In this document: piece after piece, positions 1,843-16,065 of the stretch
Position numbering within the stretch: position 1 is the stretch's first letter
Layout of the letters: each line of letters starts with the position of its first letter
NCBI GenBank assembly: GCA_009908405.1
Contig: JAAAPG010000110.1
Location: 1-32,605 of the forward strand
DNA from: Alphaproteobacteria bacterium
Lineage (GTDB): Bacteria > Pseudomonadota > Alphaproteobacteria > Rhodobacterales > Rhodobacteraceae
DNA length: 32,605 nucleotides
Direction of reading: 5' to 3'
Notes under the pieces: generated by a model
The model's database searches: none
Seen by the model: the letters and a program-made list of their open reading frames with translations, nothing else
What the model was told of the DNA's origin: nothing
Made by a program: the position numbers and the translations under genes

Positions 1843-1918
1843 GCATGTCGCGCGAAACTGGTTTCCGGTGTTGCGCAAAAAGTCATGCGATCATGAAATG
1901 TTAGAGCGCGACGCGCTC
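1843..1918. repeat. Palindromic intergenic element: GCATG...GCGC...GCGC...CATGC hairpin plus GAGCGC-gac-GCGCTC hairpin
   Basis: GCATG 1843-1847 pairs with CATGC 1884-1888; GCGC 1850-1853 with GCGC 1873-1876; AAC 1856-1858 with GTT 1870-1872. Second hairpin GAGCGC 1904-1909 / GCGCTC 1913-1918. Organisation resembles a Rhizobiales intergenic palindrome known to me from memory. Confidence 0.6.
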
Positions 1919-14914: not shown

Positions 14915-16065
14915 AGGTCTTCCTGATCGCGGGCGAACCGTCGGGCGACGCGCTGGGTGCCGCGCTGATGGCGGGGCTGGCCGATCTGGCGCCGGGTTGC
15001 GCATTCGCGGGTGTGGGCGGAGAGGGGATGACGGCGGCGGGTCTGAATTCACTCTTCCCCATGTCTGATCTGTCGGTTATGGGGCTGGCCGAAGTGCTGC
15101 CGCGTATCGCGCTCTTGCGCCGCCGCATCGCGCAGACCGCCCAGGCCATCACCGACACAAGGCCCGATCTGGTCGTGACCATCGACAGCCCCGATTTCTG
15201 CCTGCGCGTGTTGCGCAAGGCCCGCGCCGCGCGCCCCGATCTGCCGGTGGCGCATTACGTCGCGCCCTCGGTCTGGGCGTGGCGGCCAAGGCGGGCGGCG
15301 CGCATGGCGCCCTTGGTCGATCACGTTCTGGCGCTCTTGCCGTTCGAGCCGCCCTATATGCAGGAAGCGGGCATGTCCTGCGATTTCGTCGGGCACCCGG
15401 TCGTCGCCGTCCCCCGCGCGTCAGAGGCCGAGGCGCAGGCGATACGTCAATCGGACACGGTCGTTCTGGCGCTTCCCGGCTCGCGCGGGGGCGAGATCGC
15501 GCGGCTGGCCCCGCGCTTCGGGCAGGCTTTGGGGCTGGCGCTGCCACAGGGGGCGCAGGTGCTTGTGCCCACGGTGGCCGCGCAGGCCGACCACATGCGC
15601 GCGCAGGTGGCGGCATGGCCCATTCCGGCGCAGGTTTTGACGGACCCGGCCCAGAAGCGCGCGGCCTTCGGCGCGGCGGATGCGGCGCTGGCGGCGTCCG
15701 GCACGGTCAGCCTGGAGCTGGCGGCGAATGACACGCCCATGGTCATCGGCTACGACATGGCCTGGCTGACGCAGCGGATTGCCGAGCGTCTGGTCAAGCT
15801 GGACACGGTGACGCTGGTCAACTTGGTGTCCGATACCCGCGCGGTGCCTGAATACCTGGGACGTGCCTGCACGGCGCAGAACCTTGGGCAAGGCTTGCGC
15901 GACCTGCTCACCGACCCCGCCCGCCAAGCCGCCCAACGCGCGGCCATGCGCCTGACGATGGAGCGGTTAGGGCAGGGGGGCGACGCGCCGGGGCGCCGTG
16001 CGGCGGCGTCTTGCCTGGCCTTCATGGTTCGGAAAGCGGGTGGTGGTCCAGCACCAGCGCCTTGA
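14911..16065 (+). CDS. lpxB: Lipid-A-disaccharide synthase LpxB
   Basis: MKVFLIAGEPSGDALGAALM, FAGVGGEGM, VAHYVAPSVWAWRPRRA, FVGHPVV, LALPGSRGGEI. ATGA overlap with lpxI; ORF track start 14629 rejected. Confidence 0.95.
   Translation: MKVFLIAGEPSGDALGAALMAGLADLAPGCAFAGVGGEGMTAAGLNSLFPMSDLSVMGLAEVLPRIALLRRRIAQTAQAITDTRPDLVVTIDSPDFCLRVLRKARAARPDLPVAHYVAPSVWAWRPRRAARMAPLVDHVLALLPFEPPYMQEAGMSCDFVGHPVVAVPRASEAEAQAIRQSDTVVLALPGSRGGEIARLAPRFGQALGLALPQGAQVLVPTVAAQADHMRAQVAAWPIPAQVLTDPAQKRAAFGAADAALAASGTVSLELAANDTPMVIGYDMAWLTQRIAERLVKLDTVTLVNLVSDTRAVPEYLGRACTAQNLGQGLRDLLTDPARQAAQRAAMRLTMERLGQGGDAPGRRAAASCLAFMVRKAGGGPAPAP

Follow-up and report, generated by a model that had tools for sequence, protein, structure and literature searches.

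An intergenic element between convergent DUF2256 and AraC-type genes

The window, by which we mean the whole 32,605-nucleotide stretch of DNA analysed here, contains two convergent genes separated by a short palindromic element. The left neighbour is a DUF2256 gene on the forward strand (1692-1841; PF10013, E = 4.7e-24) with its TGA stop at 1839-1841, and the right neighbour is a gene for an AraC-type regulator on the reverse strand (1917-2735; PF12833, E = 4.9e-23) with its minus-strand TGA at 1917-1919. Both genes are flush with the element, which exactly occupies the gap between their convergent stops, as the first-pass annotation of this sequence had described. On the evidence of blastn, a covariance model and alignment to a consensus, the element is a damaged copy of a two-arm repeat that runs, borders included, from 1838 to 1921 on the forward strand, wider than the 1843-1918 given earlier and measuring 84 bp against a consensus of 107 bp. 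The left border, TTGA (1838-1841), stands where the consensus has YTAR, mostly CTAG, and holds the DUF2256 stop; the right border, TCAGG (1917-1921), stands where the consensus has TCTAR and holds the stop of the AraC-type gene. Arm I, GCATGTCGCGCGAAACTGGTTTCCGGTGTTGCGCAAAAAGTCATGC (1843-1888, +), is a hairpin with an A-rich bulge on its 3′ side, defined by its fold and by covariation across lineages, and is joined by a linker, GATCATGAAATG (1889-1900, +), placed by alignment with full copies, to an arm II remnant, TTAGAG followed by CGCGACGCGCTC (1901-1918, +), which still folds.

The nested inverted repeats noted earlier at this locus are borne out by the sequence and are more stable than shuffles of it. 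Arm I folds at -20.3 kcal/mol, a value that none of 300 shuffles equalled, and the small but perfect GAGCGCG/CGCGCTC hairpin at 1904-1918 is more stable than all 300 of its shuffles. When 1835-1925 is folded alone, the 5′ arm can alternatively pair with the arm II remnant (z = -2.4). Global alignment to the consensus places a single 23-bp deletion between 1906 and 1907 that removed the tip of arm II, and the short TTAGAGCGCGAC hairpin is what this deletion left behind, not a normal arm II. Elsewhere in the window, a simple codon-bias caller places no gene in the roughly 1.1 kb at 14915-16021, which is unusually long for such a dense region.

The element belongs to a dispersed alphaproteobacterial repeat family

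The window copy is neither alone nor tied to DUF2256 flanks, as blastn finds 23 further places that match it in the 2.58-Mb draft genome (E < 1e-5), which is probably that of a haloalkaliphilic member of the Rhodobacterales. A covariance model built from 20 full copies (R1) matches 30 places in the same genome at E < 1e-5, and a second model from which the window copy was left out (R2) recovers that copy at E = 2.8e-13. The intact unit, about 107 bp with its borders, reads CTAGAGCATGTCGCGCAAAAGTGGTTCCCGGTTTTGCGCAAAAAGACATGCGAcCATgAAaGGTTAGAGTGgGGCGCGTGAATACGAATGAACGCGACGCGCTCTAG and is laid out as YTA, then (R)AGC opening arm I, the linker, arm II closing in GCT(Y), and TAR. Its ends are terminal inverted repeats with the consensus GAGCaTGTCGCGc and GAGCgCGTCGCGt (RAGCaTGTCGCGc; GAGCATGTCGCGC).

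The distribution is patchy, and in the family and the class as a whole most genomes do not have the element. Of the 37 genus genomes, 24 have it; copy numbers in the genus run from 0 to 71, and several complete genomes have none. R2 finds a match (E ≤ 1e-4) in at least 48 of 249 sampled family genomes and at least 46 of 385 sampled class genomes, both counts being lower bounds under strict filters. A blastn search of plasmids with the consensus returned 161 records (best E = 5e-10), 145 of them from Rhizobium and 132 spanning 80% of the query or more. Carriage by phages was considered and rejected, as 50,697 phage records gave no match. The Rhizobium plasmid copies align over 107 of 107 positions at 73-76% identity, and a Bradyrhizobium-like copy from the class sample (L097), which reads CTAGAGCATGATCCGGAAAAGTG...CGGTTTTCCGAGAAGATCATGCTCAAACAA, has matches of up to 91% in Bradyrhizobium plasmids. 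The kinship with a palindrome of Rhizobiales that had been proposed is thus one of block-by-block, end-to-end homology. The same proposal left open whether the element was a divergent lineage-specific member or a horizontally shared MITE-like family, and both descriptions hold, for it forms a subfamily and is mobile and patchy.

Several described repeats resemble the element. Among them are the RIME-type two-arm intergenic repeats of Rhizobium and Bradyrhizobium (Osteras et al., 1995, as cited in PMC2573895), compared here by their description and through the Rhizobium and Bradyrhizobium homologues. Those homologues share the two arms, the AAAAGTG...CGGTTTT core, the CTAA/CTAG borders and the position flush after stop codons, but in the genus studied here the stems have diverged with compensation and arm II has no GANTC at its tip. 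CcrM-associated intergenic repeats, or CIR (Chen and Shapiro, 2003, as summarised in PMC2229807), are alike by description in being intergenic alphaproteobacterial sequences of about 110 bp with two long inverted repeats, a linker and 5′TA3′ termini. Bru-RS1 and Bru-RS2 of Brucella (Halling and Bricker, 1994, as cited in PMC10800456), compared by description only, are palindromic, intergenic, multi-copy alphaproteobacterial repeats of 103 and 106 bp. RUP of Streptococcus pneumoniae, to which no sequence relation is claimed, is likewise 107 bp long with terminal inverted repeats and a TA target (PMC2229807). The element is therefore of a known two-arm, RIME/CIR-like type, and its Rhodobacterales variant is new. 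What is new comprises the Rhodobacterales subfamily, its lost GANTC and the direct evidence of TA duplication at stop codons, for none of which did we find a published description in a search that covered few subscription journals.

Both arms are maintained by compensatory change across lineages

Individual copies fold alone into the same two arms. A cross-lineage alignment of 31 diverse copies has 93% of its cells paired. Changes on both sides occur at 24 of its 32 pairs (7-12 in controls with the partner slid), and compensatory cells number 117 against 28 expected from shuffles; these counts are biased upwards, since the alignment had been fitted to the fold. The signal disappears once the partner is shifted by 1-3 columns. 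In the core of arm I (AAGTG...CGGTT) the sequence itself is conserved. Covariation in the stem, put forward earlier as a check on the family, is therefore present across lineages; within the own genome, where the copies differ too little, none rises above shuffles.

A conserved fold with covariation is also what a structured regulatory RNA, or riboswitch-like element common to orthologous genes, would display. We regard this as very improbable, since the genes flanking the element vary from copy to copy, the element occurs in both orientations relative to them and it sits at their 3′ ends. Rfam, moreover, holds no family that the window copy matches at gathering score, only chance matches appearing at E up to 10, even though the repeat family spans many alphaproteobacterial genera.

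Two copies from class relatives (L095 and L100, in genomes G225 and G179) carry, after arm I, another hairpin that resembles a terminator and has a T-run, e.g. GGGAGTGGATTTCGATCCGCTCCCTTTTTCG. These two copies suggest that arm II may be exchangeable.

The genus variant lacks the GANTC site at the arm II tip

The defining feature of CIR is a GANTC, the CcrM site, capping one of the two arms, and it is here that the genus variant departs from the type. Of 18 copies taken from beyond the genus, 16 contain GANTC, in nearly every case at the tip of arm II. None of the 28 own-genome copies examined has it there, and of 61 further genus copies 60 lack it as well; the tips read GAATGCGAATGA or similar instead. 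In the window copy the arm II tip is itself deleted. The genus has thus lost a GANTC that most of its outside relatives retain. A RAMA-domain protein of CcrM size is encoded in the own genome (G000:C23:2099-2392, in a 388-aa frame) and is a candidate CcrM. GANTC has been lost although a CcrM-like protein is still encoded, which argues that the site is not required for the element to persist.

Empty sites reveal insertion with duplication of TA

Joined flanks of own-genome copies were looked up in relatives, and exact empty sites were recovered at four loci, showing a TA target-site duplication. The first locus reads CGCTTAGGCGG, or something close to it, in four relatives, against CGC[ATAGGG...CTCTAG]GCGG in the own genome. 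At the second, three relatives read GGCTAACGC or GGTTAGCGC, against GG[CTAGAGC...GCTCTAG]CGC. Two further loci, at stop codons, agree. TA stands at both ends in 69 copies. In 53 of these the base just inside it on the left is complementary to its counterpart on the right, so this base is part of the element and only the TA is duplicated. A 4-bp duplication of CTAG was considered and rejected, as it fits only 16 of the 69. The preference for YTAR holds where the opposite stop codon is uninvolved (45/52 on the left and 43/44 on the right). A review, in its account of CIR-type elements, gives their duplication and mobility as unknown and calls for more information on how they move (PMC2229807); for the present element, the TA duplication is demonstrated. 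The empty sites show how relatives of these repeats insert, namely at YTAR, with TA duplicated, and often in stop codons, which the element itself repairs.

The borders of the window copy are too mutated for its own TA duplication to be read, and its locus holds no element in any of the five nearest relatives; one of them, G027, has the two stop codons overlapping at the empty site as GCTTAGG. G032 carries an element elsewhere within this gene gap, which is most simply explained as an independent insertion. In G032, a genome with 61 matches, the DUF2256 gene has one copy on each side (L169, contig C131).

Most copies lie flush with stop codons and between convergent genes

In 74 of 107 copies a border TAR is the exact end of a reading frame of 80 codons or more, and in 18 this is so on both sides, although some of these copies are orthologous between genomes (e.g. 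L063/L085 and L151/L164), so that the counts are not all independent. The frame ends exactly there because the first base of the element restores TAG or TAA. With frames of at least 100 codons, 45 of 88 end at the left border (10 and 5 for the two remaining frames) and 38 of 77 at the right border (10 and 0). At unannotated loci, gene ends were placed by a simple codon-bias caller and may be wrong in single cases; on annotated Rhizobium and Roseinatronobacter plasmids the element is equally flush after stop codons. Convergent gaps make up 60 of the 79 gaps that contain an element, compared with 4 among the window's 30 gene pairs, and only one of the 79 is divergent. The window was used for this comparison since a local background of 7/83 convergent gaps is biased, as a gap beside a convergent gap cannot itself be convergent.

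Such a location, almost exclusively 3′ and convergent with a single divergent gap, is what one would expect of a domesticated 3′-end module, in which the host keeps the hairpins to terminate transcription in both directions or to stabilise the mRNA 3′ ends of convergent genes, and mobility explains only their spread. The compensatory changes in both arms across lineages favour this reading as well, and they exceed the constraint that a purely parasitic MITE would need, which weighs against the MITE-like reading given below. Bidirectional termination had also been suggested for this locus in the first-pass annotation, but neither arm is followed by a T-run and a terminator scan finds nothing at the element. 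Covariation is moreover absent within the genome, the distribution is patchy, sister genomes are element-free at the same gene pairs, and arm II is broken in the window copy. We therefore consider a host-maintained module of this kind unlikely.

The search for a mobiliser

The palindromic, intergenic and multi-copy character of the element also recalls REP/BIME-type repeats mobilised by a RAYT (Y1) tyrosine transposase, and a RAYT/Y1 link had been raised for this locus. It finds no support in the genomes: Y1_Tnp was not found in the own genome, and of the 37 genus genomes it was found only in two, G006 and G021, both element-free. Duplication of TA together with terminal inverted repeats points to a DDE-type reaction and not to Y1 chemistry, so that a REP/BIME origin is scarcely credible.

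An IS630-type transposase (DDE_3) was rejected as the resident mobiliser, as it is missing from most element-rich genomes and abundant in an element-free one. No DDE_3 match was found in the own genome or in the element-rich G033, G032, G034 and G002; G028 has five such matches and 71 elements, and G005, of the same genus, has 78 matches and no element. The search for a longer, autonomous element with the same ends yielded none in the complete genome G033, and in both G033 and G028 the exact end motif occurs only at positions consistent with ordinary copies. In this the element differs from RUP, which has an IS630 partner with matching ends, but many accepted MITE-like repeats are likewise without a known partner (PMC2229807).

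A stop-codon-restoring MITE-like element as the most probable explanation

We think it very likely that the element is a non-autonomous, MITE-like repeat that targets TA and lands at gene ends, and that the window holds an old, decayed insertion. The mobile unit consists of about 101 bp plus the duplicated TA, with two hairpin arms, a linker and terminal inverted repeats (RAGCaTGTCGCGc). It inserts at the TA of a YTAR site, best CTAG, and duplicates the TA, presumably by means of a TA-specific transposase that acts in trans and is now absent or undetected. In GC-rich genomes, many of the non-coding YTAR sites are TAA or TAG stop codons. Since R is the first base of the element on either strand, TAR is regenerated on each side, so that a single stop or two overlapping convergent stops are preserved and both proteins remain intact. 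Insertions that are harmless in this way would survive, and this survival bias probably causes the 3′-end, convergent-gene location. At the window locus, an old insertion between the overlapping stops of the DUF2256 and AraC-type genes would have been followed by loss of 23 bp from arm II and by border mutations.

A bolder version is possible, though we hold it only tentatively: a widespread alphaproteobacterial hairpin element specialised in overlapping convergent stops, which rebuilds both of them, is kept by the host as a double 3′-end structure and depends on a transposase supplied in trans. Were this true, the RIME, CIR and Bru-RS repeats would be joined into one mobile superfamily.

At one further site (L034/L058, G000:C2:21721-21894), a full copy and a fragment made up of arm I and linker lie head to tail with a common border, an arrangement indicating that copies can accumulate side by side.
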